A stretch of 64,000 bases of DNA, taken from assembly GCA_946800325.1 (NCBI GenBank), contig OX326961.1, forward strand, positions 44,715,415 to 44,779,414, written 5' to 3'. Each line of letters opens with the position of its first letter. Position 1 is the stretch's first letter. The notes beneath the pieces are model-generated. The model ran no database searches and was not told the origin of the DNA. It saw nothing but the letters and a program-made list of their open reading frames with translations. Of this stretch, positions 13,770-60,123 are shown one piece after another. Made by a program: the position numbers and the translations under genes. The DNA comes from Luzula sylvatica. Its lineage: Eukaryota > Streptophyta > Magnoliopsida > Poales > Juncaceae.

Positions 13770-15496
13770 TGATAAGAGGAAAATAAAGCACCTTTTTGAT
13801 ATCTACTTTGAGGATTTTAGCCCTTTTGAATCACAACTTTATATATAGAATTGTTCATATTCGAGTTAACAAGAATAATTCTTCACTAATTGTGTTTTAT
13901 TGCTAATTACAGATTTTTAGGAGGAAATTCTTGCAAATCCGAGAGTGTAGTTGCCTTTCTTTCCTCGCGCCGATAAAATTGATATATCATACCGACCATT
14001 TCGTTACACGTATGAAGGAGAAGGCAAATAATCATCAACATAAGAGATTACACCAAACTCTACTCGAAATCCACTCACACATTTGCCACACCACAGCCCC
14101 CCAACTACCACACCTACCACCCCAACTACACTCAATCCTCCCACCCATCTCTTGACCAATGGAAAAACCCCAAGGGGACTATAAATAAGACCCCAAGGCC
14201 CATGGGCAGAGACTGCTTCTTCTTCCCTTCCCTTTCTTCTCTCTCTCTCTCTCAAGCACTTTCAAGAACTTTCAAGAACGTCAAGAACCGTTCAAGATTC
14301 TACTCGAATTCTCGGGTGATTGTTCGCCAAGCATCGGAGCTCGCTCCTTCTTGATGTGAGCACACCAATTGGGTCCAAGGAGGTTTCCATTGCCGGACGA
14401 GGAGCTTTCTCCATCCGGCAAAGAGGCCTAATCGATTGTAGTCGTTGAGGAGCCTCATTCTCCATCGGACGAGGAGCTTTCTCCATTCGGTGGCCAACGG
14501 TTTTGGGAGTGGAGCTTTCCTTTACCGGACGAGGAGCTTTCTCCATCCGGTAAGCCTCCCTTCTTCGAGTGGTTCTTGAATGGGTGTCTCTTCTCTCCTC
14601 AACCCGGACTAGCTTTCTAGCGGGTGACGGCGATTACCTCGAGCGAGAAGCGCTTTGGCCGGACTAGCTTTCTAGTGGTTGGAGCATCGAGCGACCACAC
14701 TAGGCGAGGATAAGGGGCTCTTCTTGACGCGTTGATGCTTTCTTGACTTGCGTTGATGCTTTCTTGACTTGATCTAGGTGTATTCTTTTCTATCTTGAAT
14801 TTCTTGTATGTTGGATGATAGTTTGAGGTTGTGTTAAAAACCGTGTTGAATCTAGTTCTTGCTTTAATCTTGTTTCTTGCATTCGAATATTTTGCTCTCT
14901 TTGTGTGATATTTTTGTTCTGTTTTTGTTCTTTTGTTGCTCTCTTTCTACTTGCATTTTAGTCCTTAATTAAGATATTAAACAATCTCTGATCAAGTCTC
15001 AATTCAAACCCTAAACAAAATAAACAAGAAAAAAAACAGAAACTATTCCGTTATAACGGACCCAAGTTGCGTTACAACGGACTAGACGGTTGGTCCTTTC
15101 ATATTCAGTTGGTTACAACTCCGTTGTAACGCAGCTTATTTCCGTTGTAACGGATGCACCAATACGTTGCAACGCTACCATAGTCCGTTGTAACGGGCGT
15201 GCTATTCCGTTGTAACGAACATTCTTCCGTTGTAACGGACTTCCACTTCACTCTATCCATTAGAATTTTCATTGCATTCCGTTGTAACGGACTCACTTCC
15301 GTTATAACGGACAACTAATTTCTGGAATAATTTCTGCCTATTTTGCTTGTTTTGATTCATTATTCGACGCATATACTCCTCGTGGAACGAACTTTCATAT
15401 TTCTACTATACACATTTAATTCCAAACTTGTTGATTGAATCGGTTTTCACATACAACGATATCTCAATTTAAAAGTGATCGAAACCCGCCTCATCA
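13770..15496 (+). repeat. G1 5' LTR
   Basis: 1,727-bp LTR. TATA box TATAAATA at 14,180-14,187 is followed by a CT-rich initiator-like tract (about 14,235-14,254). Repeats of GGACGAGGAGCTTTCTCC occur at about 14,395-14,550, and a CCGTTnnAACGG cluster at about 15,050-15,310 lies well downstream of the TATA box. Compared with the 3' LTR it has about 90 extra bases just after the TATA region, which are missing near 58,917 in the 3' copy. Confidence 0.88.
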
Positions 15497-15498
15497 AA

Positions 15499-15516
15499 TG
15501 GCGCCGCTGCCGGGGA
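15499..15516 (+). other. G1 primer binding site (tRNA-Asp)
   Basis: TGGCGCCGCTGCCGGGGA lies two bases after the 5' LTR. It is complementary to the 3' end of plant tRNA-Asp, the primer known for Athila/Tat elements, with one internal mismatch to the usual CGTTGCC form. Confidence 0.8.
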
Positions 15517-15651
15517 GTAATGTTTAAGTCAAATTTTGAATCAAACTTGCAATCTCGAGTGATATTTCTAATATATTTGATACATTTGAACTTTATATTT
15601 CACTAATTTCGAAAATTTTCTATTCTTGCAAGGTACACGGAGTAGAGCAAG

Positions 15652-17911: not shown

Positions 17912-17916
17912 AGGAC

Positions 17917-18301: not shown

Positions 18302-18755
18302 TGATAAGAGGAAAATAAAGCACCTTTTTGATATCTAATTTGGGGATTTTAGCCCTTTTGAATCACAACTTTATATATACAATTGTTCATATTTGAGATA
18401 ACAAGAATATTTCTTCACTAAGTGTGTTTTATTGCTTAATTACAGGTTTTAGGGGGAAATTCTCGGCAATCCGAGAGTGTAGTTTCCTTAGTCTCCTCGC
18501 GCCGTTAAAATCGATATATCATACCGACCAATTTGGTACACGTGTGAAGAAGAAGGCAAATAATCATCAACATAAGAGATTGCACCAAACTCTACTCGAA
18601 AACCACTCACACAATTGCCACTCTACAGCCCCACCTACCTCACCTACCACCCCCAACTATCCTCAATCCTCTCACCCATCTCTCGGCCAATGGGAAATTC
18701 CCAATGACACTATAAATAAGACCTATGGACAGATTTACGCTCTTTTTATGCTTTT

Positions 18756-18836
<81 letters not shown>

Positions 18837-19978
18837 CTCAAGATCCACCAAGAACCTTCAAGAACCCTACAAGAACTCATTCACTCGCTCGGGAGATTTG
18901 ACCGTGACTTGGATTTCCTTCCTTTCGACGAATCGACCTTTCTCGAGACTAACCGTGACTCGGGGATTTCCTCATTTCGGGACTTGTGAAGTTGTGTTGA
19001 GACCGTGACTCGGAGGTTTTCTCTTTCGGAGCTTGAAGAAGGTGTCAACCATGACTCGGAGTCTTTCCTTTTGGTGACCCTTCATCGACTTAGCTCGTGA
19101 CTCGAGATTTCTTCCCTTCGGTGACCAACGAAGCAAACTTGCCGTGACTCGGAGGATTGCCCATTCGGTGGTCAATCAAGCGAAGGCATAGAAGACTAAG
19201 GAAGACACATTGAGTTACTTTCTTCATTCTAGGTGTACTCTTTCTAATCTTGTAATTCTTGTTTGCTTTGTGGATTAAGTTGTGTAAAAGAGAATTTCTT
19301 GTTTGAATCGAATCTTTGTTCTAAAATCTTGTTCTTTTACTTGATCTTTTTGTTCTTAATTACTGTCTTGATCTTAGTTTAAATCTCCCTTAATTCAATC
19401 TCAAAACAAACCTTTAATTCAATCCTCAATCTAAAATATAAAACAGAAATCCAGAACAACTTCCGTTATAACGGAATAAGACTTGCGTTGCAGCGGACCT
19501 TTCGGTTTGTACCTGATTTTCAGTCTGTTGGTACTCCGTTGTAACGCACTTTACTTCCATTGTAACGGACCAGTGAAGAAAAACATTCAATAGCACTCAT
19601 ACTAGTGCGTTGTAACGGACATACTAGTTCGTTGTAACGGATCAACCAATCCGTTAGAACGCTACTTCTTTCCGTTCCAACGGACTACCACTTTCGTTGC
19701 AACGGAACTTAATCCGTTGTAACGGATCTTCATATCAATCCTTGCGTTAACAATTACCCTAATGTCCGTTATAACGGACCTTCTTTCCGTTGTAACGGAC
19801 TACCCTCTGTGAATTTTCTTTGTAATTTCTAGTCCCGTTTTGATTAAATCTTTGACGCACTTACTCCTCGTGGAACGAACTTTAATATTTCCACTAAACA
19901 CATATATTTCCAAACTTTTTGATTGAATCGGGTTTTCGAATACAACGATTAAGAATCCATAGAAAAAACCGTTCATTA
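18302..19978 (+). mobile_element. Athila-type solo LTR, TSD GTGAT
   Basis: 1,677-bp LTR (TGATAAG ... CATTA, last CA mutated) flanked by GTGAT at 18,297-18,301 and 19,979-19,983. TATA box TATAAATA at 18,711-18,718, a CT/CA microsatellite at 18,758-18,834, and a CCGTTnnAACGG cluster at about 19,459-19,800. It is the same subfamily as the LTR at 28,826-29,629. Confidence 0.85.
18758..18834. repeat. (CT)n(CA)n microsatellite in solo LTR
   Basis: An uninterrupted CT dinucleotide run of about 46 bases passes directly into a CA run of about 30 bases, about 40 bp downstream of the LTR TATA box. Shorter CT runs sit at the same position in related LTRs. Confidence 0.95.
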
Positions 19979-19983
19979 GTGAT

Positions 19984-20967
19984 CGAGACATTCAACTCCA
20001 GAAGTGTGCTCTAGAAGTCCCGTCTCAAGCCAAGAAAATATCGCATTGGACCGGCCCATTCGTGGTGACAAATGTGACACCATTTGGAGTTGTAGAGATT
20101 CGAAGCGACAAAACGACTAAAACATTGAAGTGAAGGACCATCGCCTCAAGAATGTCAACGCAAAGTTCAAAACAAGATGGATGGAGGAGCAACAAGTTGG
20201 AGACGATCAAGCACCACACATCAAAGGTTGTGTCTCTCCTTAACCACTTTTAAATTTTCTCTATATTATCGCTTGAGGAATAATTATGGGGGGGGGGGGG
20301 GGGGGGGGGGGGTATACACACAATCTTTGATAAAATAAAATAAAATTGAAATGAAAAAAAATCCCTTTTAAAGAAGTAAGTAAAACTTTTCCAGAAACAT
20401 GTCCGTTATGACGAACCTCAATGTCCGTTGTAACGGACCTACTCAAAAATTCAAATTTCAGTCCACGACTAGTATTCCATTGTAACGCAGAAACTTCCGT
20501 TATAACGGACCATATGTCCGTTGTAACGGATTTCAAACTGCGTTGTAACGGAAATTTTTATGGAAATTTTTATTTTTAATTATTTTTAATGAAATTTTAA
20601 AAATAATTTTTGAGCATTAAAATTACACAAGCCAGGGATTTTGTGCATTTTAAGGTTTTTCTCCACCTCATTGAATAAATCATCGATTTTCAAACAAATT
20701 TTCACCAAACCACCATCATTTTACTCTCAAATTTGAAATTTTCACAAAATATTTGAAGAAGTTGATTGAGATCTTCAAGAGATTCTTTCGGGGATTCAAA
20801 CCCTAATCAATAATTCACATAACCATGTGTTTTTGACAATTTGATCGATTCTCGATTTACATGACACACTATTTTCGAAACTAAAACCCATATTTTACTC
20901 GGAATTTCCAAAAAGCCTTGTTTTAATCCACTATAGTAAGTTTTGCTTAAATCTAAAATTGGAAAAT
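19984..20967 (+). pseudogene. G1 integrase C-terminus and pol-to-LTR spacer
   Basis: From about 20,015 to 20,140 the frame resembles the end of G3 integrase (WTGPFVVTNVTPFGVVEIRS). It then decays. The spacer carries a 25-G run at 20,288-20,312, a CCGTTnnAACGG cluster at about 20,399-20,550, and sequence repeated at 50,956-51,200. It ends at the AATTG target site of copia element C2. Confidence 0.65.
20288..20312. repeat. G25 homopolymer
   Basis: Twenty-five consecutive G preceded by ATTAT and followed by TATAC. The surroundings resemble the short polypurine tract context (TATGGGGGTATT) of the same family, so it may be an expanded polypurine-like tract. Confidence 0.9.
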
Positions 20968-20972
20968 AATTG

Positions 20973-22217
20973 TGTTGGTTCAAATTTCCTATTGTTTGAT
21001 TATCTCAAATACAATGTCGATACTACTAACGAAATCTAGCAACATAAATGTGTAGGAGATAGGTACAAAATGAAAGGATCAATCAAGAATAACAAGAATC
21101 AAAGACATCGAAGAATCATGGATAAAATCAAGACGCACATAAATCAAGACGTTGAAGAATTGCGAAGAAGATCAAGACATAGAAGATTCCGCAAGTTGGG
21201 ATATCTACCTAATCATCAATACAATATATAGGTGTCTCTAAACTTGTTTAAAAGATTAAACTCAATGAAAAAGTACTTGAATTCAATTAAAAAGGCTGAA
21301 ATCAGTATGTCCGTTGCAACGGAATTCCAGTCCGTTGTAACGGAACTACTCGATTTATTCAACATGGAAAAACCAGTATAGTCCGTTGCAACGTAATCAC
21401 CAATACGTTGTAACGGACATGTACGTTGTAACGGAACTCTATCTCCGTTGCAACGTTATTTTATTTCCAATGAGGAAGCCTGTCACAGAAGAATGTCCGT
21501 TGTAACGGACATTAATGTCCGTTGTAACGGACATCAAGGCTTCACTTCAGTATAAACTTCCACATAAGTCCGTTGCAACGGATTAACCAATCCGTTGTAA
21601 CGGAACCCCTCACCACGTTGTAACGGAAAACTCTCCGTTGCAACGGGAATTAAAACCAAAGCTGAAGTGTTGTCTCAGTAGTATGTCCGTTGGAACGGAC
21701 TCAAGTCCGTGGCAACGGACTAGCTAACACAGACTTCCGTTGCAACGGACTACGTTCCGTTACAACGGACTGTGCAATAAATTCAAGTACGGCAGCCATA
21801 ACGGCTAGTTTTTTGAGAGTTCCGTTGCAACGGAACATATGTCCGTTGCAACGGACTATTCAGAAAAAGCAAGTGAGGGAAGGGACTATGTGTTCTATAA
21901 ATAGAACCCTTCCCTCATTCTCTCTCATCACTTCATCTATCCAAATTATAACTTCCAAAGAGAGAAACCTTGCTATACCATTGAGCTAAACAATCTTCTA
22001 AACCATTCTTAGAGATTAGATTTCCCTCCTCATCCTCCAAATACTATTCCCAACTTGCGTGACCGATCACGTTTAGTTAGTATTTAGAAATTGTAATAGG
22101 CTAGTACCAAGAGTGTAAAGCCCGCTATAGATCGATAGAAAACGTGTAAATCGATCTAGGCAAAACCTTGTACGAGTGAGTTGGAATTCAATCGAACGCC
22201 GAAAAGGCACAAGGCAA
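20973..22217 (+). repeat. C2 5' LTR, truncated at its right end
   Basis: Starts TGTTGGTTCAAATTTCC and matches the 3' LTR base for base over long stretches up to about 22,217-22,221, where homology stops. TATA box TATAAATA at 21,896-21,903, directly downstream of a dense CCGTTnnAACGG cluster. Confidence 0.85.
21308..21858. repeat. CCGTTnnAACGG cluster in C2 5' LTR
   Basis: About 18 full or one-arm-mutated copies of CCGTT-nn-AACGG in 550 bp, centres mostly GT or GC. Two perfect TCCGTTGTAACGGA copies at 21,496-21,509 and 21,518-21,531 are 22 bp apart. The cluster ends about 40 bp before the TATA box. Confidence 0.9.
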
Positions 22218-25400: not shown

Positions 25401-26959
25401 GAGTCACTAGTTTGGACAACTCCTTGTCCGAACTCTCCGTTTTGGAAAACATTTTCCCAAAATACCCTTAGACATACAGTTCTTTCAATCCCGCTTTTGA
25501 ATTACAAGGACATCCATTGCATCTCTATGCTTTGGATTCCCCGGACACTCCAAGCATCTCCTATTCAAATTTACATCACATCATATGCAATTTCGGGATC
25601 GACTTATCTATCGAATGCATATGATATTTGGTCACGACGATCAAATCTCGTACCATCAACACACGAGTGTCAATCCAAGACCCATAAGGCGTCTCAAAAT
25701 TAACCTACTCTTTGAGCCGCATTGAATCATTCAACGCGCTCTAGCTCTTGAAATTATTTCATGAGCGCTGTGTTTTACTTTCATATACACCCGAATTCTC
25801 AAAACAATTTTGAGAATATACGTCTATACATGCCACCACAAGGCACGTAATATTGTTCGATTCCTTCTTAAAGTTTATCGAACCCGGCTTTCTCTAAAGC
25901 CAATGCCTCGAGTCCCGAATCTACCATGTCCGTGTCCAACACGTTCCTTTAAGTCTAAAGAACTATTCTTTAACTATCAAGGTTAATCATGGTAATTCCG
26001 GCCCAAAAGCCATCTATTATATCGATCTCATCAATATATATTTGGTGTTGCTTGAAAACATAATTTTAAACGGATGATGAAGATTAACTCCTAACCGTGC
26101 GTACTTAATCTATATGCTTATATGATGAATATATGACAGTGTTATTTTATCGAATCGATAACCCTCATACCGATACGGGACTCCAAGTCCATAACACTCA
26201 AGACCCATATTTCCGTTCCTCCCACAAGTGACTTTAGCCTATCGGGTGGGATCCCGTTATTTAGGTAGGATTATATCCATTCGTATCCAATACGACTCTT
26301 GAACCTTTATAGGATTTCGGTGATGGATCGTATCCCATACAATCCCAGTTCCGTGTGTGCATCCTATCTATGCCCCGAACTCCAATCTGATTGCCCTGGA
26401 CGGTTAAGTCACAACCATATCCAACATATCGTTTAAATAAGCTACTAGTGAGTCGACTTTAGCCTGTGCCTCACAAGTCCCGATTTAACGCTTGCCACTC
26501 TTTCGATGGTTACAATATCACGTGCCCGACTTTAGCCTGAACCCACGTGAAATGTAATCACCAAACTCGGTGGTTGTGGATATGGAAGGCATTTCCATGA
26601 CTTAAATATTATGAGGGATCATGCCATTGCATGTTTCTAAATCCGTGACATAATCATATTATATCACTATCACAAGATTTTCTTAAATGCATATGTATTT
26701 ATTTGGGAGTCTAATTATTCTAAATAATTATCTAATTATATGCTAGTATGATTGATGCCGATCAAATCGATATAAAAAACTCAAAATTCCGAGCTTCGTA
26801 GCCAAAGTTATCGCGAAAACAAAATCAGCATCCAGAAGGGGATCGGTTATAACGGACTGCCCCATCCGTTGTAACGCAGGGGCCCAACGGGCGCGAGAAA
26901 ACCTCGCCCGGGACGCGTCCGGGGCGCCAAAAACTGCCCCCGGGGCGGCAGAAAAACTG

Positions 26960-28825: not shown

Positions 28826-29629
28826 AATCAAGCGAAGGCATAGAAGACTAAGGAAGACACATTGAGCTACTTTCTTCATTCTAGGTGTACTCTTTCAAAT
28901 CTGGTAATTCTTGTTTGCTTTGTGGATTAAGTTGTGTAAAAGAGAATTTCTTGTTTGAATCGAATCTTTGTTCTAAAATCTTGTTCTTTTACTTGATCTT
29001 TTTGTTCTTAATTACTGCCTTGATCTTAGTTTAAATTTCCCTTAATTCAATCTCAAAACAAAACTTTAATTCAATCCTCAATCTAAAATATAAAACAGAA
29101 ATCCAGAACAACTTCCGTTATAACGGAATAAGACTTGGTTGCAACGGATCATTCGGTTTGTACTTGATTTTTAGTCTGTTGGTACTCCGTTGTAACGCAA
29201 TTTACTTCCGTTGTAACGGACCAGTGAGGAAAAGCATTCAATAGCACTCATACTAGTGCGTTGTAACAGACATACTAGTTCTTTGTAACGGATCAACCAA
29301 TCCGTTAGAACGCTACTTCTTTCCGTTCCAACGGACTACCACTTTCGTTGCAACGGAACTTAATCCGTTGTAACGGATCTTCATATCAATCCTTGCGTTA
29401 ACAATTACCCTAATGTCCGTTATAACGGACCTTCTTTCCGTTGTAACGGACTACCCTCTGTGAATTTTCTTTGTAATTTCTAGTCCCGTTTTGATTAAAT
29501 CTTTGACGCACTTACTCCTCGTGGAACGAACTTTATTATTTCCACTAAACACATATATTTCCAAACTTGTTGATTGAATCGGGTTTTCGAATACAACGAT
29601 TAAGAATCCATAGAAAAAACCGTTCATCA
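28826..29629 (+). repeat. G3 5' LTR, right part
   Basis: Almost identical to 19,175-19,978 in the solo LTR at 18,302. Contains a CCGTTnnAACGG cluster (about 29,115-29,452) and ends CGTTCATCA directly before the primer site. Confidence 0.85.
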
Positions 29630-31233: not shown

Positions 31234-31235
31234 AT

Positions 31236-31247
31236 TGGTATCAGAGC
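31236..31247 (+). other. C1 primer binding site (initiator tRNA-Met)
   Basis: TGGTATCAGAGC three bases after the LTR, the standard copia primer site. Confidence 0.9.
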
Positions 31248-31300
31248 AAGGTACTAACCATCTCTTTGAGTATTAGGGATAACTTGTACTTAACGATCAA

Positions 31301-33670: not shown

Positions 33671-34601
33671 GCCCTAACTTGAAACACTATGCTCCTTAGT
33701 ATCCCACACCTTAAGCCAAATATGTAAGGAGAGTATAGGAAATGGGCTAAATTAAATTCTAGCCAAATTGGTCGAGTCTCATGTAGCTACATCACAAGTG
33801 TTAATAGAGGATTACATTAGAACACTTGTCTCGGTAAATAAATCACGATTACAGTCCAGTGATCACATCTCAGGAACCAATCCGTTCGAACGAAAAACAT
33901 GTGCGTTTGGAACGGACAAATGAAGTCACCAAATACCCCCTTAACAGCCTCAAGTCCGGTCTAACGGACTAAAATACGTTCGAAACGGACAACTGGACTA
34001 TAAGATCCAAAGTCACAATTAAATTATGGCGCCATCAAATTTTCCTACCAGGATCAAGTGCGTTCGAACGTACAAATGAATGCGTTCCGAACAGAAAAAT
34101 GAATTATAGGATTATGGCGCCGGTTCATACTTTGGCGCCGACTCTTAGTGTCACCAGTGTTCAGTGCGTTCGAACGAACAATTAATGCGTTAGAACGCAC
34201 ATTCCTCATTCAGCGAACCTACTTCAAACCCTTACACTCGAGTCGTTTCATATTCTGGCGCCTCTTCTCAGTTGTGTATGCGTTCGAACGCACATGGGAG
34301 TCCGTTCGAACGGACTTAACAACTTCCCAGATACAACTTAAAATCCCAAAATAGCGCCTTTTCTCAGACATGAATGCGTTCAAACGCACATAGAAGTGCG
34401 TTCGAACGGACTCGTTGTAATAACTCTTCATCCACATGCAACCTACTGCCTTCAATGGATGTGATGGTTCCTTTTCCCTTATGGCGTGACTTGAAGGGAC
34501 ACGATTTCATCAGTTACTTAGCCCCCCTTCATTCTCTTTCTTTGTATCTCTTCCAAAACTCTCTCTCTCTCTCAGAAAAACTAAAATCGTCAACGATAGC
34601 C
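33671..34601 (+). promoter_or_regulatory. C1 inter-gene spacer with palindrome cluster
   Basis: Non-coding spacer between gag and the second gene. CCGTTCGAACGG-type copies occur from about 33,888 to 34,412, including a perfect 18-bp palindrome AGTCCGTTCGAACGGACT at 34,299-34,316. Centres are CG, as in the C1 LTRs. A pyrimidine-rich tract (about 34,530-34,575) precedes the ATG. I infer an internal promoter or enhancer for the second gene. Confidence 0.55.
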
Positions 34602-44258: not shown

Positions 44259-45126
44259 TGATGAGCGGGTTTTTGGCGTGTTTAATATGTCGTTGTGGTA
44301 AAACCCCGAACAATCAACAAAATTTGTAATCTAAGTTTGTACAGTGGCAAATGTATAGATTCGTTCCACGGGGAGCAATTGCGTCAAAATTTGGATCAAA
44401 ATGGATGAGAAATAACGAAGAAAATTCATAGAAGATAGTCCGTTACAACGGAGTTAAGTTCCGTTACAACGGAACTTAGGGTTATGTTTAACGTGGAGAT
44501 TGAAAAGAACGTCCGTTACAACGGAGGAACTTCCGTTACAACGTAAATAGGTAGTCCGTCGTAACGGATAGGAGTAGCGTTATAACGGATTGGTTGATCC
44601 GTTACAACGTACTTGTATGTCCGTTACAACGCACTAGTATGAGTGATATTGAATGTTTTTCCTTGCTGGTCTGTTACAACGGAAATAAAGTGCGTTACAA
44701 CGGAGTACCAACAGACTGAAAGTCAGGTACAAACCGAATGGTCCGTTACAACGCAATTTAGGTTCCGTTACAACGGAACTAGTTCTGGTTTTCGAAATTG
44801 TAATTTGAATTGAGGGTTTGTTTTGAGATTAAACTAAGGGTGATTTAGGCTAAATTCAAGGCAGTAATTAAGAGTAAGAGATCAAGTAACACATCAACAA
44901 AGATTCGATTCAAGTAACAAGGATTCATTCAAGCAAACAAAGGATTCAAACAAGAAAAAGATTCACACAAATCCAAGTAATTTTATGCTACAAGAAATGC
45001 AAGAAAGGAAGGAAAACACCTAGAGAGATGAAGAGAGCTCCGAGTCTCGTCTTGAGTGCCTTCCTTGTTGTTCGAGTTGCTAGAGAGCTAGTCAAAGCGC
45101 CCAACAATTTCCTTTCGTACCGATCC
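44259..45126 (-). repeat. G4 3' LTR remnant
   Basis: Plus strand TGATGAGCGGG ... CGTACCGATCC, matching 48,792-49,672 with a handful of substitutions and one 12-bp indel. Carries a CCGTTnnAACGG cluster (about 44,438-44,780), with centres read as AC on this strand. Confidence 0.85.
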
Positions 45127-48100
45127 GTCTTTCTTCAATAGTTGGCACATTGGTTGGGCGAGCTTGGAGAAGTCTTTGATGAAGCGCCTATAGAATCCCG
45201 CATGGCCAAGAAAGGATCGCACGTCTTTTACCGTCTTTGGATACGGAAGTGTCTTGATTACGTCGATTTTCGCCTTGTCGACTTCCATTCCTTTCTCCGA
45301 GATTAAATGACCTAAAACAATTCCTTCGCTCACCATGAAGTGGCATTTCTCAAAATTTAAGACAATGTTAGCTTCGATGCATTTTTCGAGTATTTGGGAT
45401 AAATTGCCTAAGCATGAATCGAAAGAATCTCCAAATACCGAAAAATCATCCATAAAAACTTCAATGAATTTGGAAATATAATCGGAGAAAATAGAAAGCA
45501 TACACCTTTGAAACGTGCCGGGAGCGTTGCATAGGCCGAATGGCATGCGTCGATACGCGAAGGTACCAAACGGGCACGTGAATGTGGTCTTCTCTTGATC
45601 TTCGGGTGTGACCGGTATTTGGAAATAGCCCGAAAATCCGTCGAGGAAGCAATAGAATGGATTTCCCGCGAGTCTTTCTATCATTTGATCGATGAATGGA
45701 AGCGGGAAGTGGTCCTTTTTCGTCGCCTTATTGAGCTTTCGGTAATCGATGCAAACTCGCCACCCGTTTGGAACTCGAGTCGGCACTTGATCACCTTCAT
45801 CGTTCTCAACTATCGTCATCCCCGTTTTCTTCGGCACTACGTGTATGGGCGAGACCCATTTTGAATCGGCGATGGGGTAGATTATTCCGGCGTCGAGTAG
45901 CTTGATCACCTCTTTCTTTACAACTTCCATCTTTGGCGGATTGAGCCGCCTTTGTGGTTCTCGCGAGGGCTTAGCATCGTCCTCGAGAAGGATTCGGTGT
46001 GTGCACATGGAGGGGGAAATGCCCGGAATGTCGGAGAGTGTCCACCCGAAAGCCTTCTTATTCCTTTTTAGCACTTCGATGAGTTTTTCTTCTTGCTCCT
46101 TTGCTAGGTTCGAGGCGATTATCACCGGCAAAGTTTCCGCTTCATCGAGAAAAGCATACTTTAGTCCAAAAGGTAATTTTTTCAATTCTAACCTTGGAGC
46201 TTGTTCGATTGAAGGTGGAGCTCTTTGCATCGGGATTTCGAGGTCTCTTAGAAAGAGTGCTTGATCTATGCCTTGTTTTTCTTCCAAATCCGGCTCGATC
46301 TCGAATGTAGGATTGTCATATCCTTCAAATTCCTCGAATAGTGGGTTCGAGCTCCATTGAAGGTTTTCGAATGAGCTATCCATGACCTCTTGTACACAAT
46401 CGTCGATCACGTCCATAGCGCTTAAGTTGAGTGTACCTACAATGGGTTCCTTTAGTTTGTCAAAAATATTGAATTTGATTACCTCATCATCGAACTCCAT
46501 TGTGAGCTCTCCCGCGTGTACATCGATCTTTGTGCGCGCCGTCTTCAAAAATGGCCGTCCAAGGAGAATCGGGGTTGAATCGCTACTCCCCTCATTCATG
46601 TCCAACACGTAGAAATCCGCAGGAAATAGCAATCCATTCACGGTTACTATCACGTCTTCGATCACTCCAACCGGTCGAGTCGTGGACCGATCGGCCAATT
46701 GGATCACAACTTGAGTATCGTCGAGGAGGCCTAGGTCAAGAGTCTTGAATATCGAGTATGGCATTACATTTATTGAAGCGCCCAAATCAAGCATGCATTT
46801 AGGTAACTCGTGTTGCCCGATTTTACAAGGGATAGCAAACATCCCCGGATCTTTGTGCTTTTGGGGGAGTCTCAAGATTGCCGAAACACTCTCCCCCACA
46901 CTAATCAACTCATCTCCCTTTGTCTTTCTTTTATTCGTGCACAATGCCTTGAGATATTTTGCCAAACGAGACACTTCTTTGATTGCTTCGAGTAGAGGAA
47001 TGTTTACCTCCACTTTCTTTAAGATGGCAAGCACGTCGTTGTTCGATTCGATTGGCTTTGGGAGACGACTCGGGAAAGGTGGCTTGACTTGAGTCGATTC
47101 GGTTTCTAGTTCTTGAGTTGGTAATGTCGCGGCTTGAGTCGGACTCTTCTTCGGTACCGGTACCTCGAGTTCCTTTTCTTCTTGTACCTCCTTGCTCTTC
47201 GAACTTTCGCCCACCTCTTTACCGCTTTGGAGCGATATTGCGTTCACATGCCTTTGCTCGGAAGGAGCCAACGATTGAGATTGGAGTCGAGATGTACCTT
47301 GGGTCTCGAAAACATTGAGTCGAGTAGCCATTTGATTCATTTGAGTCTCCAAGTTCCCCACATGGCGATTCGTGTTCGCAATTTCGCTCTTAAATTCTTG
47401 CTTCAATTCTTGCTTCATCGTTTCCATGTTTTTATTGACCCCCCCGATTTCTTGTTTGATTATAGAGGTTATACCGTTCATCATCGTCTTCATATCGAAC
47501 TCTTGTCCTTGTACCGGTTTCGGTATCGGTTGTGAAGCGTTCGGGTGTTGGTATGTGGCCGGCTTTGTAAACGGTTGTCGATACGGATCGGGTTGAGCAT
47601 TGTTCGTGTTTGACCATGAGAAGTTCGGGTGATTGCGAAGGTTGGGATTGTACGAATTGGAGGGCTCGAATTTCTTGTACGCGGCGTTTACGTCTTCGAC
47701 TAAGCTCGGGCACTCGTCCGTGTAGTGAGCACTAGCATTACAAACCCCACATTTCTTGGTTTCTTCTTTGCCCAAAGCTTTCATTATGATCTCGAGTTTA
47801 TCGTTAAGCACGTCGACATTGAGGTCGGTACATGCGTTAACTCGGTATTCCACGTTCTTCCTCGATTGCGAATTGGTTGCCGTGATCTCTAGCAATTTCT
47901 TAATTTCTTCGAGATCCTTGTTGGAGATACTTCCCCCCGCGGATGCGTTGAGGAATTGACTTTCCGAGTAGCCGAGACCGTTAATGAATTGCTCATAGAG
48001 GAATTGCGGTTCCACACTATGGCTTGGGCATTCTTCCTTCAAACGCATGAAACGATCGTAGTATTCGTGGAATGCTTCGTTCGGTTTTTGCGTTATTGCC

Positions 48101-48771: not shown

Positions 48772-48789
48772 TCCCCGGCAGCGGCGCCA
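48772..48789 (-). other. G4 primer binding site (tRNA-Asp)
   Basis: Reverse complement TGGCGCCGCTGCCGGGGA, two bases from the LTR end, as in G1 and G3. Confidence 0.8.
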
Positions 48790-48791
48790 TT

Positions 48792-49952
48792 TGATGAGCG
48801 GGTTTTTGGCGTGTTTAATATGTCGTTGTGGTAAAACCCCGAACAATCAACAAAATTTGTAATCTAAGTTTGTACAGTGGCAAATGTATAGATTCGTTCC
48901 ACGGGGAGCAATTGCGTCAAAATTTGGATCAAAATGGATGAGAAATAACGAAGAAAATTCACAGAAGATAGTCCGTTACAACGGAGTTAAGTTCCGTTAC
49001 AACGGAACTTAGGGTTATGTTTAACGTGGAGATTGAAAAGAACGTCCGTTACAACGGAGGAACTTCCGTTACAACGTAAATAGGTAGTCCGTCGTAACGG
49101 ATAGGAGTAGCGTTATAACGGATTGGTTAATCCGTTACAACGTACTTGTATGTCCGTTACAACGCACTAGTATGAGTGATATTGAATGTTTTTCCTTGCT
49201 GGTCCGTTACAACGGAAATAAAGTGCGTTACAACGGAGTACCAACAGACTGAAAGTCAGGTACAAACCGAATGGTCCGTTACAACGCAATTTAGGTTCCG
49301 TTACAACGGAACTAGTTCTGGTTTTCGAAATTGTAATTTGAATTGAGGATTGAATTGAGGGTTTGTTTTGAGATTAAACTAAGGGTGATTTAGGCTAAAT
49401 TCAAGGCAGTAATTAAGAGTAAGAGATCAAGTAACACATCAACAAAGATTCGATTCAAGTAACAAGGATTCATTCAAGCAAACAAAGGATTCAAACAAGA
49501 AAAAGATTCACACAAATCCAAGTAATTTTATGCTACAAGAAATGCAAGAAAGGAAGGAAAACACCTAGAGAGATGAAGAGAGCTCCGAGTCTCGTCTTGA
49601 GTGCCTTCCTTGTTGTTCGAGTTGCTAGAGAGCTAGTCAAAGCGCCCAACAATTTCCTTTCGTACCGATCCACCCGTCAATAGAAGTGAGCTTCGTACCG
49701 GTTGGGTGGGCTCGAGATGTGCAAAGGTCGATTGAAAAGAAGCTTCCAACCAATCACGCCGAGAAAGCTCGACTCCTTGCTTGTGAAAGTTCGAATGAAA
49801 TAAGTTTCACCCTAATTCCACAACTTTTCCTTAGCCGAAGTGTAAACCGATTCACCGAATGAAGTGAGCTTCTATTCGGTGATCGATCTTAGAAAATTAT
49901 CGTTCATAGTTGCAATTCTTACTTGTTCTTGAAAGTTCTTGGACTTGCTTAA

Positions 49953-50023
<71 letters not shown>

Positions 50024-50955: not shown

Positions 50956-51624
50956 TTCCTTGATTTACATGACATTCACTAAATTCATAAGTTTCCCAAA
51001 TTGAAATTTTCACAAAATATTTGAAGGAGTTGATTGAGATCTTGAAGAGATTCTTTTGGGATTCAAACCCTAATCAATGAATTCACTAAATTCATAAGTT
51101 TTGACGATTTCATCAATCCTTGATTTACATGACACACCATTTTCATAACTTAAACCCATATTTCACTTGAAATTTCTAAAAGCCTTGTTTCAACCACTTT
51201 AGTATGTTTTGCTTAAATCTAAAATTTGACCAATTGCACTTAAGAGATCTCGACCGTTCATGGGGATTTGAGATTGCATTAATGGGAACCGAATTGTGCT
51301 CAATGCTTGATTCGTGAAGCCCATACACCTTGATTAAGCGGTCTTGGTCGAACCGTAACCATTGGTCGGCTAAAGGGGTGCATGGGTCATGATAAACCAA
51401 AGTATCCGGTCTTGGTCGAACCGTAACCATTGGTCGTGCGAAAAAGTTTTCTATGGTCACGGGTTAAAGTGCTTAGATTGTCGAATCCGTGTGGTTGATT
51501 AAGCGGTCTTGGTCGAACCGTAACCATTGGTCGGCTAAAGATCACACGGATCCATGGGGTTTGATTAAGCGGTCTTGGCCGAACCGTAACCATTGGTCGG
51601 CTAAAGAACAACATGGGGACCATC
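50956..51624 (+). other. Athila-like 3' spacer with tandem repeats
   Basis: Plus-strand sequence homologous to G1 spacer at about 20,735-20,967 joined to 55,890-56,290, but here uninterrupted, i.e. the pre-insertion state of the AATTG site occupied by C2. Four copies of a unit containing GGTCGAACCGTAACCATTGG lie at about 51,330-51,610. It joins C2 gag sequence at about 51,625. Confidence 0.65.
51330..51610. repeat. Tandem repeat with GGTCGAACCGTAACCATTGG core (array 1)
   Basis: Four units spaced about 65-90 bp. Three are GATTAAGCGGTCTTGG... ending GGCTAAAG; one variant ends CGTGCGAAAAAG. Array 2 at 55,990-56,270 has the same order of units. Confidence 0.85.
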
Positions 51625-52971
51625 TAAGCAATACTAGTCTATAAAGGCAAAAAGAAGACCAAACAACTCGGTAACGCTAAGGCTTTAATTGTCACATCGG
51701 ATCCATGGGGAGATTCGGAAAGCTCAAACTCATCTTCCGACTCGGAGTATAATGGTGTACACACAATCGCAAATGCAACCCTAATGGCGGAATGCACTCA
51801 TTCGATGGATGATGTGGTAGAAAGAGCCATTCAAGCAATGCTCCTCCAACGAGGTCCAATACCGAGACCACGTGCACCACACTCTCCGAGCGTCACCTCT
51901 CATGCATCTACATCCAACCCATCGCCGGACCAAGATCATGAGGTATTTCTTAAACCAATAATATATTCAACTAGTTCAACCTCGGATTCATGTTCCTCAC
52001 CAAAATTAAACTCACAACTCGAACTTGAATCATTCGACGCTCTCTTAAGAGACGTGGATGAACCAAGTCCAAATGAGAGAAAGGTCGAGAGCACAATTCT
52101 AGCTCTAAATGCAAAGGTAGTTTCCCTAGAATTATCGGTCAAAGCATACCAAGCACAATTGAAGGAATTCCAAGGTTTTTCAAAGTGTGAATGCAAGAAC
52201 CTCAACCTTGAGATATCTCACCTAAGATTAGAACTCCAAAACTCCAAAGTAGAAAATGAATCCTTGATGAAGGCTCGTACATCATGCGCACCAATCACCC
52301 CGTCATTGGATCAAATATTGAAAGGGGCGTTAGTGGGACAAAAGCCAAACGACAAGTCGGGTCTCGGGTTCAAAAAGGAGAGTAAACCCGGCCTCTCAAA
52401 ATCAAATGATCAAAAAGGTAAACGGGAGAACAATCAACGAAACAATCGCGGAAATGCATTCATATACCGTGATCAAAACAAAGGTAAAAATGTTAGAATG
52501 GAACACCCTACACATAATTGGTTCTATCATAGGGATAACCATTTTACGCAACCATCATCCCATAGACGTACCGATTTGGGACGACCCGAGTGTTGGTTTC
52601 AACGAGGATCAAATGGGTATTTTTATGAGGTGAATTACCCCGCCAACCGTCCATATCAACCGAGGGCTCCTAGACCTTACAACCATACACGCAAACCTTT
52701 TCAACCGAAAAACAATTTTGTCAACTCAATCAAACCGATACCTCAAAAGAAACCCCTAACAAACCAACTCTCAAATTACTTTGTCAAGAGTTCCGAAACC
52801 ATCAACAAACCGACAATTGCTTTTTGCAATTATTGTTGCAAGTCAGGACACATATCCACGAGTTGTGATCTTCGCCACCCAAAATCCACTACAAATTTTG
52901 TATGGATGCGTAAAGATAGACACACTATGGGTCCCTCCACCTCAAAGGGTGTTGGACCATCAAGGACCTAA
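51625..52971 (+). pseudogene. C2 gag C-terminal part
   Basis: The open frame begins at the junction and ends at 52,971. It matches C1 gag from about residue 345 onward: Ser/Asp-rich stretch, coiled-coil-like LRLELQNSKVENESLMKA, a basic NRGNAFIYRDQNKGK region, knuckle CNYCCKSGHISTSC and the WMRKDRHTMGPST tail. The N-terminal gag core and first knuckle are missing. It shows the long gag with C-terminal knuckle is a shared trait of C1 and C2. Confidence 0.78.
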
Positions 52972-54118
52972 ATCATGTGTGAAAAACTCACTCCCTCTCC
53001 TCGCTACCGTGAGTAAATCATTGAGGGGGAGTGTGAGTACAAGAATTCATATTAGATTAAATTCCAATATGAATTCCCTATATTGTTTATATATAATTAT
53101 CTACATACTTACAAAAGGCCGAGAAAGGTGTGTTACGTTCATGTAGGCACACAAGAACGAAGAGAAAAGCCGAAGAGCTCATCGTATATAAACGCTTAAA
53201 TAGCTACCATAGAGCAAAATTGAACTCTAGGAATCGATCAAGAACTCTCTTTTGTAAGCTTGGTTCTCGGGTCCATGACCAGAGCAAAGGTATAATCGCT
53301 TTGTAAATGAGTCAATGATTATAGTTATTTATAGTTATATAAACGCATCATCGATTGTCATGGATACTCACATGCGCATTTTCTAAAAATTCTTTGTACA
53401 CAAATTTTTGAAGAAATGCATACATTCATATCCATAAAACATATTTTGAATAAAACATATAATTTTGGAAGTTATGACACACAAAGGCTCTTCAAAAATC
53501 AAAAGTTAAAAACTTCATCTCACAAGAGAGTCCGTTACAACGCACAAATGTGCGTTACAACGAAACTAAGAAGACAAGCTGAAAACCGGAAAAATCACAT
53601 GTTCCGTTACAACGGATCAACCAATCCGTTGCAACGAACGTGTGCGTTACAACGAACATATTTTGTTGTAACGGAATTCTACAATGCCTGTTCAATTACC
53701 CCCCAATTCAACTGTTACGTTACAACGGATAAACCAATCCGTTGCAACGGACATGTCCGTTACAACGGACTTACTGCGTGGTAACGGACTGCTGAAATAC
53801 CAGTTAAATACCCCCAAATCGACAGTTGCGTTACAACGGAACTTCACTTACGTTGCAACGGACTTGGCGGTAACTGCAATAAAATTCAAGGGACGGCTCT
53901 CTCTCTCTCCACTCTCCTCACCTTCTCCCTCACTCTTCACGATAAGAAACCGTTCTCCTACCTTCTCCTGTCGACTCCACTTCTCCAAACTGGTACCACC
54001 TCTCCTCTCCTCCTTCCTTCTCCCTATTTAAACTCCCAACTACACTCCATTGAGATCTAAACACCCATTTCTCTCTCGAAAACCCTATTTAACTCAAAAC
54101 CCTATTTCTCTCTCGAAA
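52972..54118 (+). promoter_or_regulatory. C2 inter-gene spacer with palindrome cluster
   Basis: No gene. CCGTTACAACGG, CCGTTGCAACGG and mutated forms cluster at about 53,530-53,865, matching the centre types of the C2 LTRs rather than those of C1. A TATTTAAAC box (about 54,025) and a CT-rich leader precede the second gene. Inferred internal promoter. Confidence 0.55.
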
Positions 54119-54586
54119 ATGTCTACCAAGAGATCTAAACGTCCATTACCAACCGGCAATCGCCGATTCGAATTCAACAACACCGAAAACAACTATCTCT
54201 TCGAATCAATTACGCGGGCACGCAAATTTCACGAAGAGTTCAAAGAACGTCCGGTAGCCAAATGTTTCTACGTGGAAATTCCTCCCGAGGCTATCACACT
54301 TCGCGGTGCCGTGCAACCTCGCATCAACAATTGGAGTATCGGTGGGTTGTGTAGTCTTCAATACCCCACATACAACCAAATCGTGCGTCTTTTCTACTCT
54401 CACGCCACACATGACGACGACAACAAATGTATTCGAAGCTATGTTCTCGGTAAGGAATTAACAATTTCGGAGGCAAATTTAATCGAATGGCTCGGTCTAT
54501 CCCCGGATGGTGATCGATTCTATGTGAGTCGCGGTGACTCGTATCACGGTGATGACTCGGAAGAAATGGAGAAAATCAAGACATAG
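54119..54586 (+). pseudogene. C2 second gene, N-terminal part ('putative plant transposon protein'-like)
   Basis: Starts MSTKRSKRPLPTG (basic). The core resembles C1: RFEFNN ... FHEEFKERPVAKCFYVEIPP ... IVRLFYSHATHDDDNK ... SYVLGKELTISEANLIEWLGL. After about residue 150 it runs into LTR sequence at about 54,575, with a short shared AAAATCAAGAC at the junction, so the C-terminal half and the first part of the 3' LTR are deleted. Confidence 0.75.
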
Positions 54587-55889
54587 ACATAGAATTGCGA
54601 AGAAGATCAAGACATAGAAGATTCCGCAAGTTGGGATAGCTACCTAATCATCAATACAATATATAGGTGTCTCTAAACTTGTTTAAAAGATTAAACTCAA
54701 TGAAAAAGTACTTGAATTCAATTAAAAAGGCTGAAATCAGTATGTCCGTTGCAACGGAATTCCAGTCCGTTGTAACGGAACTACTCGATTTATTCAACAT
54801 GGAAAAAACCAGTATAGTCCGTTGCAACGTAATCACCAATACGTTGTAACGGACATGTACGTTGTAACGGAACTCTATCTCCGTTGCAACGTTATTTTAT
54901 TTCCAATGAGGAAGCCTGTCACAGAAGAATGTCCGTTGTAACGGACATTAATGTCCGTTATAACGGACATCAAGGCTTCACTTCAGTATAAACTTCCACA
55001 TAAGTTCGTTGCAACGGATTAACCAATCCGTTGTAACGGAACCCCTCACCACGTTGTAACGGAAAACTCTCTGTTGCAACGGGAATTAAAACCAAAGCTG
55101 AAGTGTTGTCTCAGTAGCATGTCCGTTGGAACGGACTCAAGTCCGTGGCAACGGACTAGCTAACACAGACTTCCGTTGCAACGGACTACGTTCCGTTACA
55201 ACGGACTGTGCAATAAATTCAAGTACGGCAGCCATAACGGCTAGTTTTTTGAGAGTTCCGTTGCAACGGAACATATGTTCGTTGCAACGGACTATTCAGA
55301 AAAAGCAAGTGAGGGAAGGGACTATGTGTTCTATAAATAGAATCCTTCCCTCATTCTCTCTCATCACTTCATCTATCCAAATTATAACTTCCAAAGAGAG
55401 AAACCTTGCTATACCATTGAGCTAAACAATCTTCTAAACCATTCTTAGAGATTAGATTTCCCTCCTCATCCTCCAAATACTATTCCCAACTTGCGTGACC
55501 GATCACGTTTAGTTAGTATTTAGAAATTGTAATAGGCTAGTACCAAGAGTGTAAAGCCCGCTATAGATCGATAGAAAACGTGTAAATCGATCTAGGCAAA
55601 ACCTTGTACGAGTGAGTTGGAATTCAATCGAACGCCGAAAAGGCACAAGGCATTCCCGGAGACGTAGGTACTCGCAATTAGTTGAATCGGTCAATTAAGC
55701 GAGTAAAGGGTGAGTTAAAGCTACAAAGCAACCACCTACCGAACTCCGTAATAAACATCGCGTGTTCGGTATTTTCATTTCATTATTACTTAAATTTATA
55801 TTCCGCACTAAATTAGAATTTGTATACCTAGTCGAAAATTGCCCACTAGGTTACCTATTCACCCCCCTCTAGGTTAGAATTAATCAACA
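54580..55889 (+). repeat. C2 3' LTR, left end deleted
   Basis: Matches 21,125-22,217 in the 5' LTR nearly base for base, then continues to its true end TTAGAATTAATCAACA. TATA box at 55,332-55,339 with the palindrome cluster at about 54,741-55,293 upstream. Confidence 0.85.
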
Positions 55890-55894
55890 AATTG

Positions 55895-56409: not shown

Positions 56410-56414
56410 TTTAG

Positions 56415-56878: not shown

Positions 56879-56922
<44 letters not shown>

Positions 56923-58049
56923 GCAAGTCCAAGAATCTTTCAAGAACACGCAAGAATTACCAAGAACGAACGATAAATTCTCTAAGATCGATCACCGAAT
57001 ATAAGCTCACTTCATTCGGTGAATTGGTCTACACTTCGACGAAGATCGAGTTGTGGGGTTTTGGTTGGAGCTTTCTTCATCCGAATCCGCGCAAGCAAGG
57101 AGTCAAGCTTACTCTATTCCACTCGGGAGCTTTCTTCCAATTGGATTCCTTGCAAATCTCGAATTCACTCAACCGGCACGGAGCTCACTTCGATTGGCGA
57201 GTGGATTGGTACGAAAGGAACAAGTTGTGCGAGGTGTCTAGCTCACTAGCATCTCAAGGCAACGAGGAAGGCATCCAAGACGAGATCGGAGCTCACTTCA
57301 TCTCTCTAGGTGTTTTCTTTCCTTTTCTTGAAATTCTTGTAGTTTTAATTGAATTGGATTTGTGTAAAGAATTCATGGTTTAATGAAACTTTTGCTTTCG
57401 AAATCTTCTTTGTTTGTTTGTGTGATCTTAGTGCTTATTTCTTAGTTTAATTGCTTTTAAATTTGAATCCAAAACAAACCATCAAACTGCTCCCAATTCA
57501 AATCTCAAACCAGAAATCTAGAACTACTTCCGTTATAACGGAACTCGCACTACGTTGCAACGGACTGGACGGTTTGTACCTCAATTTCAGTTGGTTACAA
57601 CTCCGTTGTAATGTACCTATAGTTCCGTTGTAACGGACTAGTCAGAATTTCTACTCAATAGCATCAATACAAATGCGTTGTAACGGACATCGCGGTTCGT
57701 TGTAACGGATTAACCAATCCGTTGCAACGCAACCACTGTTCGTTATAACGGACAAGTATAGTGCGTTATAACAGAGTTTCATCCGTTGTAACGGACGTTC
57801 ATCTCACGCTTAGCGCCAGAATTTTCACTCAAGTCCGTTGTAACGGACCTATATTGCGTTATAACGGACTATATTCTAGAAAATGTCTGCCTAACTCTTG
57901 CTTGTTTTGATTCATTATTTGACGCATATACTCCTCGTGGAACGAATCTATACATTTGCCACTGTACAAACATAGATTATAAATTTTGTTGATTGTTCGG
58001 GGTTTTAACACAACGACATATTAAAACACGCCAAAAATCCCGCTCATCA
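56415..58049 (+). mobile_element. Athila-type solo LTR, TSD TTTAG
   Basis: 1,635 bp, TGATAAG ... CGCTCATCA, flanked by TTTAG (56,410-56,414 and 58,050-58,054). TATAAATA at about 56,822-56,829, CT microsatellite 56,880-56,917, CCGTTnnAACGG cluster about 57,528-57,880. Its right third matches the G4 LTRs, so it belongs to the G4 subfamily. Confidence 0.87.
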
Positions 58050-58054
58050 TTTAG

Positions 58055-58490
58055 TTGAGATCAAAGATGAACCAAGTACTCACGTACCGAACGATTTTAA
58101 AAAGTGACAATTTACATTAAAGAAATAATTTTTGCAAAACGAAACGAGGGGTTTTTACTAAAGCTTTTTCATGATAATCCTTGTAAATAGTGGTGTGAAA
58201 AGACTTGAATTGTGGTGTTTAATCATCTTTATCGGTTGAGATCACTTGTTCTTTAAACTCTTGAATTTGTGAAACTTTATTGAAAATAGATTCTAATAGA
58301 ACTCAAACATATTTCTTTCGATATTAGTGAATATGACAAAATGAGAGTGAAGAACTTTTCTTGTGAGAATTGAGTTTTGACATCGATGAATATAATTTCA
58401 ATAAAACCTATACATGCATTTTTTTTTTTGTGCTTCATTTTTATGCTCATGGTGATCGAGGACGATCAAAGGTTTAAGTATGGGGGTATT
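58055..58490 (+). other. G1 3' internal end and polypurine tract
   Basis: No coding frame. GATCGAGGACGATCAAAGG and then TATGGGGGTATT directly precede the 3' LTR, the normal plus-strand primer context. Confidence 0.7.
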
Positions 58491-60123
58491 TGATAAGAGG
58501 AAAATAAAGCACCTTTTTGATATCTACTTTGAGGATTTTAGCCCTTTTGAATCACAACTTTATATATATAATTGTTCATATTCGAGTTAACAAGAATATT
58601 TCTTCACTAATTGTGTTTTATTGATAATTACAGGTTTTTAGGAGGAAATTCTTGCAAATCCGAGAGTGTAGTTGCCTTCCTCTCCTCGTGCCGATAAAAT
58701 TGATATATCATACCGACCATTTCGGTACACGTATGAAGGAGAAGGCAAATAATCATCAACATAAGAGATTACATCAAACTCTACTCGAAATCCACTCACA
58801 CATTTGCCACACCACAGCCACCCAACTACCACACCTACCACCCCAACTACCCTCAATCCTCTCACCGATCTCTTGACCAATGGAAAAGCCCCAAGGGCAC
58901 TATAAATAAGACCCCAACAGAGACGTCAAGAACCGTTCAAGATTCTACTCGAATTCTCGGGTGATTGTTCGCCAAGCATCGGAGCTCGCTCCTTCTTGAT
59001 GTGAGCACACCAATTGGGTCTAAGGAGGTTTCCATTGCCGGACGAGGAGCTTTCTCCATCCGGCAAAGAGGCCTAATCGATTGTAGTCGTTGAGGAGCCT
59101 CATTCTCCATCGGACGAGGAGCTTTCTCCATTCGGTGGCCAACGGTTTTGGGAGTGGAGATTTCCTTTACCGGACGAGGAGCTTTCTCCATCCGGTAAGC
59201 ATCCCTTCTTCGAGTGGTTCTTGAGTGGGTGTCTCTTCTCTCCTCAACCCGGACTAGCTTTCTAGCGGGTGACGGCGATTACCTCGAGCGAGAAGCGCTT
59301 TGGCCGGACTAGCTTTCTAGCGGTTGGAGCATCGAGCGACCACACTAGGCGAGGATAAGGGGCTCTTCTTGACTTGCGTTGATGCTTTCTTGACTTGATC
59401 TAGGTGTATTCTTTTCTATCTTGAATTTCTTGTATGTTGGATGATAGTTTGAGGTTGTGTTAAAAACTGTGTTGAATCTAGTTCTTGCTTTAATCTTGTT
59501 TCTTGCATTCGAATCTTTTGCTCTCTTTGTGTGATATTTTTGTTCTCTCTTTGTTCTTTTGTTGCTCTCTTTTTACTTGCATTTTAATCCTTAATTAAGA
59601 TATTAAACAATCTCTGATCAAGTCTCAATTCAAACCCTAAACAAAATAAACAAGAAACAAAACAGAAACTATTCCGTTATAACGGACCCAAGTTGCGTTA
59701 CAACGGACTAGACGGTTGGTCCTTTCATATTCAGTTGGTTACAACTCCGTTGTAACGCAGCTTATTTCCGTTGTAACGGATGCACCAATACGTTGCAACG
59801 CTACCATAGTCCGTTGTAACGGACGTGCTATTCCGTTGTAACGGACATTCTTCCGTTGTAACGAACTTCCACTTCACTCTATCCATTAGAATTTTCATTG
59901 CATTCCGTTGTAACGGACTCACTTCCGTTATAACGGACAACTAATTTCTGGAATAATTTCTGCCTATTTTGCTTGTTTTGATTCATTATTCGACGCATAT
60001 ACTCCTCGTGGAACGAACTTTCATATTTCTACTATACACATTTAATTCCAAACTTGTTGATTGAATCGGTTTTCACATACAACGATATCTCAATTTAAAA
60101 GTGATCGAAAACCCGTCTCATCA
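58491..60123 (+). repeat. G1 3' LTR
   Basis: 1,633 bp, very similar to 13,770-15,496 but lacking about 90 bp near 58,917. CCGTTnnAACGG cluster at about 59,672-59,940. Ends CTCATCA, then ATATG. Confidence 0.88.

Follow-up and report, generated by a model that had tools for sequence, protein, structure and literature searches.

A 64,000-nucleotide stretch of the Luzula sylvatica genome (assembly GCA_946800325.1, contig OX326961.1, positions 44,715,415 to 44,779,414 of the forward strand; this whole stretch is called the window below) raises the question of why long terminal repeats (LTRs) of gypsy-type, Athila-like retrotransposons and of two copia-like families, here C1 and C2, carry dense clusters of the same short palindrome, and what might read it. 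An original prediction, made from the letters of the sequence, had placed such clusters in 11 intervals, and each of these 11 does hold sites. The palindrome clusters are confirmed as real and lie far above the shuffle background of the window.

The palindrome, its spacing and the conservation of its cores

All counts come from this one 64-kb window, with duplicated copies included in the site tallies. The exact form CCGTTNNAACGG is present 68 times, compared with a mean of 0.04 and a maximum of 1 in 100 dinucleotide-preserving shuffles, and CGTTNNAACG is present 139 times (mean 1.28 and maximum 5 in 100 such shuffles). Of the latter, 138 fall inside 15 arrays totalling 5,400 bases and one lies outside, at 36,235 within C1. 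The arrays at 20,395-20,552, 26,840-26,880, 33,875-34,412 and 53,525-53,865 are additional to those predicted. The full set is as follows:

15040-15312, + strand: array A5 of the outer Athila-like element A (5' LTR), 10 dyads
19455-19800, + strand: array of the solo Athila-like LTR 18302-19978, 12 sites that have no more than one core mismatch, 10 exact
20395-20552, + strand: array X20, 6 sites, 4 exact, not assigned to an element
21305-21858, + strand: array in C2 LTR copy a, 18 sites, 17 exact
26840-26880, + strand: pair m26, 2 sites 22 bp apart, 1 exact
29110-29452, + strand: array in the Athila-like LTR remnant B, 12 sites, 9 exact
30125-30590, + strand: array in the C1 5' LTR, 12 sites with a mostly CG centre and a gap of 1-3 bp
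33875-34412, + strand: C1 internal array upstream of the second open reading frame (ORF2), 11 sites in helical phase
36880-37345, + strand: array in the C1 3' LTR
44435-44780, - strand: array in Athila-like LTR D, copy 44259-45126, 12 sites, 10 exact
48968-49312, - strand: array in Athila-like LTR D, the copy adjoining the primer-binding site (PBS) at 48772, 12 sites, 11 exact
53525-53865, + strand: internal array I53 of a C1-related gag element, 12 sites, 10 exact
54740-55295, + strand: array in C2 LTR copy b, 18 sites, 16 exact
57525-57880, + strand: array in Athila-like LTR E, 12 sites, 10 exact
59670-59940, + strand: array A3 of element A (3' LTR), 10 dyads

The dyad outside the arrays (36235-36264), situated between C1 ORF2 and the 3' LTR, is CG-centred and has a partner-like half-site about 22 bp downstream.

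For the 118 exact-core sites in the 12 arrays outside C1, the motif is better written as the 14-bp dyad TnCGTTRYAACGnA, the centre being RY in 112, with the outer T present in 116 and the outer A in 108. The outer C and the outer G are found in only 83/118 and 94/118, so positions 2 and second-last of the dyad are fairly free and the flanking T and A nearly fixed. The predicted frequent mutation of one arm holds for the outermost base, exactly one outer base being altered in 31 of the 72 exact-core sites of seven non-C1 arrays. C1 differs, 17 of its 20 exact-core sites having a CG centre. In the window as a whole, CGTT and AACG are separated by 2 bp in 139 cases, by 1 bp in 4 cases and by 3 bp in 10 cases, every 1-bp and 3-bp case belonging to C1.

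The half-site YAACG makes up 230/236 half-sites outside C1 (YAACGG 173/236) and only 2/40 in C1. The MBSI / c-Myb site has the consensus CNGTTR / YAACNG, and its pyrimidine before AAC is accordingly found outside C1 (230/236) and in only 2/40 half-sites of C1. As generally given, the mitosis-specific activator (MSA) site of MYB3R proteins reads YCYAACGGYYA; the AACGG core is common to it and to the dyads, but 0/236 half-sites outside C1 and 0/40 within it fit the full consensus. The earlier description of a MYB core of MSA type can therefore be retained as regards a c-Myb/MBSI-like YAACG core outside C1, whereas the MSA label has to be given up.

The sites had also been called irregularly spaced, which they are not, since non-C1 spacings cluster at 18-23 and 49-54 bp. 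In a set of 44 spacings, taken from one array each of Athila (D), the C2 LTR, I53 and X20, 31 measure 18-23 bp and 11 measure 49-54 bp, the remaining two being 30 and 65 bp, and the best period between 8 and 14 bp is 10.4 bp, with none of 5000 random placements of the same lengths and counts being as periodic. When seven non-C1 arrays are taken and every distance between two sites, up to 130 bp, is counted, the best period in the range 6-40 is again 10.4. The C1 internal array has spacings of 20.5 to 106 bp, unlike the others, and reaches R=0.90 at 10.4 (0/5000 random placements), while the C1 LTR array, which contains a 117-bp duplication, gives R 0.78 (6/5000). Sites are moreover paired: in four non-C1 arrays 0/48 are isolated, each having a neighbour 18-23 bp off (product of chances 0.0005). 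Most spacings thus come to roughly 2, 5 or some other whole number of helical turns, with a period of 10.4-10.5 bp.

Conservation of the cores was compared at two depths, a column being scored as core if either row matched the motif with no more than one mismatch. The four Athila-like subfamilies, which make six non-independent pairs, disagree in 15/528 core cells and 735/2103 other cells, while between recent copies (five pairs, one of which, solo/B, is not one element's own LTR pair) the figures are 6/464 and 23/2143; the Fisher p=6e-5 for this contrast is overstated because pairs share branches. At CG positions, recent copies have changed in 5/232 cases in cores and 1/92 elsewhere. Cores therefore decay like their surroundings in single copies and stay between subfamilies, so that the sites are held in replicating lineages, and this conservation implies that they are probably under selection where lineages are active. 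As the Athila-like subfamilies and the duplicated copies are non-independent, independent origins of arrays may number as few as two or three, and with exchange of arrays there may have been a single one.

The elements that carry the arrays

The label Athila-like is based on the label of the original prediction together with domains, LTR ends, target duplication and PBS. Gypsy-type domains PF03732, PF00078, PF17919 and PF17921, corresponding to gag, reverse transcriptase, RNase H and integrase zinc-binding, are spread across the ORFs of the B and D internal regions; the LTRs begin and end with TG..CA, a 5-bp target duplication (ATATG) surrounds A, and TGGCGCCGCTGCCGGGGA, which we take to be an Asp-type PBS, adjoins LTRs A, B and D. 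The LTRs of element A are the following:

13770-15496, + strand: 5' LTR of element A, reading TGATAAG..CATCA, with ATATG before it and the PBS at 15499
58491-60123, + strand: 3' LTR of element A, followed by ATATG

These two LTRs are 97.9% identical (1598/1632 aligned bases) and about 43 kb apart, much of the interval consisting of other elements. The solo LTR at 18302-19978 has GTGAT on each flank. Downstream of the arrays, aligned Athila-like LTRs contain a strongly conserved block, GACGCAnnTrCTCCyCGTGGAACGAA (15340-15440 and homologous LTR positions), which may mark the transcription start or R region. A long inverted pair, 41373-42390 and 45126-46143 (84%), apparently stems from the oppositely oriented Athila-like elements B and D.

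The copia-like side is represented by C1, by the C2 LTRs and by the element carrying array I53, their main features being:

29799-37959, + strand: C1 element, with LTRs at 29799-31233 and 36553-37959, target duplication ACTTC and PBS at 31236
34602-35927, + strand: C1 ORF2, 442 aa from ATG, Pfam PF20167, 'putative plant transposon protein'
54119-54583, + strand: ORF2-like fragment downstream of I53, 155 aa

C1 is an insertion roughly 150 bp beyond the PBS of Athila-like element B, and its LTRs are 99.6% identical (1401/1406 aligned bases). Its gag is of copia type (PF14223, 2.2e-20) and its PBS is presumably of Met type. Its two long ORFs contain no polymerase, copia reverse transcriptase or integrase domain, and for this reason C1 was filed as non-autonomous, and as copia-like by gag and PBS. 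AATTG borders the C2 LTRs at the start (20973) and at the end (55889), and the flanks, placed next to each other, correspond to the unbroken stretch 50994-51636. The LTRs of C1 resemble those of C2 at both start and end, the identity being 74% in the first 139 aligned bases and 78% across 550 in R-U5, so the two copia-like families of the original prediction are related. The gag of C1 and the ORF at 51628-52968, which precedes I53, have 49% identity over 421 aa; the C1-related gag element that carries I53 may be a C2 member or may belong to a further related family.

The prediction that unrelated LTR families carry the palindrome is consequently upheld for Athila and C2 and fails for C1 and C2: in BLAST comparisons with the sites masked, Athila matches neither C2 nor I53 at E<=1 (a comparison blind to matches as short as one 10-bp spacer), and the best Athila-C1 match has E=0.29. 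The further statement that these families possess different polymerases is without support, as the two long C1 ORFs have no polymerase domain and the coding region of C2 is not assigned. The same dyad is nevertheless carried by gypsy-type (Athila-like) and copia-like LTRs.

In both C1 and the I53 element an array lies between gag and the second ORF, and the ORF2-like fragment of the latter is 34% identical to C1 ORF2 over 122 aa. TATTTAA is found about 164 bp downstream of the I53 array, before the ATG. TATAAATAG occurs at about 21896 in C2 LTR copy a, about 42 bp past the last site, and at about 30616 in the C1 5' LTR, about 34 bp past the last site. This placement in C1, C2 and I53 agrees with a promoter function, and does not suit a purely LTR-specific role such as integration.

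A candidate regulatory function and its rivals

For these dyads, enriched, phased in their spacing, conserved in their cores and lying upstream of the TATA boxes of the C1 and C2 LTRs, the explanation we favour, with somewhat better than even confidence, is that the arrays are cis-regulatory promoter/enhancer modules for a dimeric DNA-binding protein that cooperates along the helix. LTR arrays would act as upstream (U3) promoter/enhancer modules, and internal arrays are probably part of the promoter of the second ORF in C1-type elements. Each dyad TnCGTTRYAACGnA would be read by a dimer of one sequence-specific DNA-binding protein, and with sites paired about two helical turns apart and pairs mostly five or another whole number of turns apart, such proteins would align on one face of the DNA and act together. 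Both the binding of protein to the dyads and the activation of transcription we infer from sequence. The YAACG half-site makes a host MYB-like factor the first guess for the binder, a separate guess to which we would give slightly less than an even chance.

Several observations weigh against this explanation. Between the array and the LTR end, outside the dyads, no TATA-like box is found in Athila-like LTRs A, B and D, LTR E has a single one far downstream, and none is seen after the C1 internal array. The CG centre and the 1-3 bp gap of C1 are a mismatch to the half-site of the other arrays, and isolated sites do occur in the C1 arrays (2/12 and 1/11). As to phase, off-phase spacings of 18, 19 and 65 bp are present, the I53 array alone is weakly phased (84/5000 random placements as strong), and Athila D alone is significant in the 10-10.9 range (2/5000), yet peaks at a period of 14.0. 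Neighbouring non-C1 spacings alone fit a period near 31 (R 0.93) better than 10.4 (R 0.76), because 21 and 52 differ by 31, and the helical interpretation therefore leans on C1 and on all-pair distances. A MYB-like binder in particular is disfavoured by the lack in the window of any dyad with AACTG in one or both arms, from which it follows that the CG of the core is strictly kept; c-Myb-type proteins are expected to tolerate AACTG.

The chief alternative as to the binder, though we regard it as unlikely, is that it is encoded by the elements, the ORF2 (PF20167) of C1-type elements binding their own promoter and LTR arrays in the manner of VANC, with Athila-like elements exploiting it; ORF2 would then be a candidate activator or anti-silencing factor. 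Homologous ORF2s do lie downstream of internal arrays in two elements, and specificity appears to track family, since the CG centre is common to the C1 LTR (6/6) and the C1 internal array (6/8 exact-core sites), whereas the C2 LTR and I53 arrays have a GC, GT or AC centre in 26/27 exact-core sites; copying between LTR and internal region would, however, explain matching centres equally well. VANC targets, according to the excerpted text of PMC5735166, are likewise arrays in non-coding regions that evolve with the protein. Against such a role, Pfam recognises no DNA-binding domain in ORF2, its structure model has a mean predicted local distance difference test score (pLDDT) of 41 and is unusable, comparison with PDB sequences gives no match and with NCBIfam nothing credible, and tblastn of ORF2 against the window at E<=0.01 finds no copy in Athila-like elements. 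No protein homologue was found at E<=0.001 among 6749 candidates, a weak negative because the query carried 76 extra residues ahead of the likely ATG. The fuller version, in which non-autonomous copia-like elements activate themselves or counter silencing through a circuit of ORF2 and phased dyad arrays, and Athila-like elements with evolved or acquired arrays parasitise this circuit, seems to us distinctly unlikely.

Compatible with any function is an old exchange, in which an array or a seed unit (the pair linked by ATYAACCAAT) moved long ago, through recombination or template switching, between the LTRs of Athila-like and of copia-like elements, after which spacers diverged and sites were kept; we hold this to be a real possibility, though on balance a doubtful one. 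Athila and C2 arrays have no detected homology beyond the motif, the spacing and this one 10-bp spacer, which stands at the same place and in the same orientation in Athila, the C2 LTR and I53, letter for letter as ATTAACCAAT in Athila and the C2 LTR and as ATCAACCAAT in Athila and I53, and the layouts are also alike, with a pair at the start and a pair at the end. There is a precedent in the gypsy element Quinta and the copia element Gisela, which have a common LTR segment (excerpts of PMC11302176). The masked comparisons described above speak against exchange, and the spacer match was equalled by 5/500 (Athila-C2 LTR) and 3/500 (Athila-I53) shuffles, that is about 1 in 100 per family pair, uncorrected for the 15 family comparisons made. 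In the C1 internal array, too, ACCAAT stands before a site (not significant, 253/500 shuffles); this word is common in the window (39 copies on the + strand), and a needed cofactor site (CCAAT) would produce the same spacer, so that the spacer reflects either an old exchange of a unit, a required CCAAT-type cofactor or chance. That the dyads are instead host-read silencing, nucleosome-positioning or centromere-docking sites is quite improbable in our estimation: the arrays are CG-rich (CpG observed/expected 1.67, the remainder of the A5 LTR having 0.86), a plant DNA methylation context, and the excerpts of PMC11302176 describe a nucleosome-holding LTR segment for Quinta, but sites that only harm the element would not be expected to keep their cores between subfamilies, and the arrays adjoin TATA boxes in C1 and C2 and lie upstream of ORF2. 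We consider RNA hairpins or neutral tandem-repeat drift highly improbable. Every site is self-complementary, local tandem duplications are present (117 bp in C1 LTRs, 113 bp in I53) and 4/14 outer pairs are compensated in C1; outside C1, however, the outer bases do not covary (31 one-arm changes and 0 both-arm compensations, n=72), and drift leaves core conservation and phasing unexplained.

It is known that LTR promoters borrow host factor sites, and the excerpts of PMC6762207 give Tto1/NtMYB2, the MYB cores of Rider and the heat elements of ONSEN as examples. These resemble the present arrays in having host-type factor sites in the LTR promoter region, and differ, as far as the same excerpts go, from the 10-18 helically phased dyads per LTR seen here, in gypsy-type and copia-like elements and in internal arrays too, which are not linked to any known stress response. 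The VANC targets of VANDAL transposons are similar in being dense, short, non-coding motifs that grow by tandem duplication and have family-specific variants, although in the excerpts of PMC5735166 the VANC21 motif YAGTATTAY is non-palindromic and VANDALs are DNA transposons, whereas here palindromic dyads are found in retrotransposons and the binder is hypothetical. Quinta and Gisela, in the parts of PMC11302176 available, also have a motif region common to gypsy and copia LTRs, and Quinta encodes gag and a domain of unknown function without a polymerase, as C1 appears to do; theirs is one homologous segment of about 162 bp, whereas Athila and C2 have no detected between-site homology except the one spacer. 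The 'DOWN' motif of MAIL1/MAIN was considered on account of a possible resemblance of ORF2 to plant mobile domains, and dropped, since its MORC1 promoter form CATGCAGTTT, as given in the excerpts of PMC9899485 (see also PMC7156037, PMC5418596), is unlike the dyad.

If the layout of dyad, two-turn pair and whole-turn pair spacing is kept by selection in gypsy-type and copia-like elements alike, it would point to one regulator of several lineages. The arrays offer a direct way to test whether selfish elements come to use one regulator by convergence, pass enhancers between them or exploit activators that belong to other elements, and the ORF2 circuit with its Athila-like parasitism, if true, would constitute a trans-acting regulatory network common to gypsy and copia retrotransposons.

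Searches beyond the window and surrounding genes

Among the entries listed by the literature searches, with most subscription journals outside their scope, and the excerpts consulted, none gave an account of this motif; six exact forms of it turned up in two papers, judged unrelated from the title and the start of the abstract. A paired-pattern search of viral contigs returned 21 stretches, none with a dense RY-centred array, and these were taken as phage or other viral DNA and unrelated; a search of viral contigs with an Athila-like gag-reverse transcriptase piece gave pattern matches in 7 stretches, none encoding a relative. Contig IMGVR_UViG_3300032030_000463 holds 10 and 14 CGTTnnAACG dyads in stretches L003 and L006 (which may overlap), 8/12 printed dyads being TCCGTTTAAACGGA; this is possibly a phage operator family and apparently unrelated.

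The transposon nest is flanked by a vacuolar-sorting-receptor gene segment present twice in direct orientation (6891-8031 and 62852-64000, 94% identical), the best relative of the receptor fragment being 76% identical. A leucine-rich repeat (LRR) kinase in the window has its best relative, 75% identical, in Typha (among 7994 candidates scored). An ORF at 12405-13769 with MuDR-type DNA-binding and SWIM zinc-finger domains reaches the start of the element A LTR, as if element A had inserted into a Mutator-like element (MULE)-like gene.

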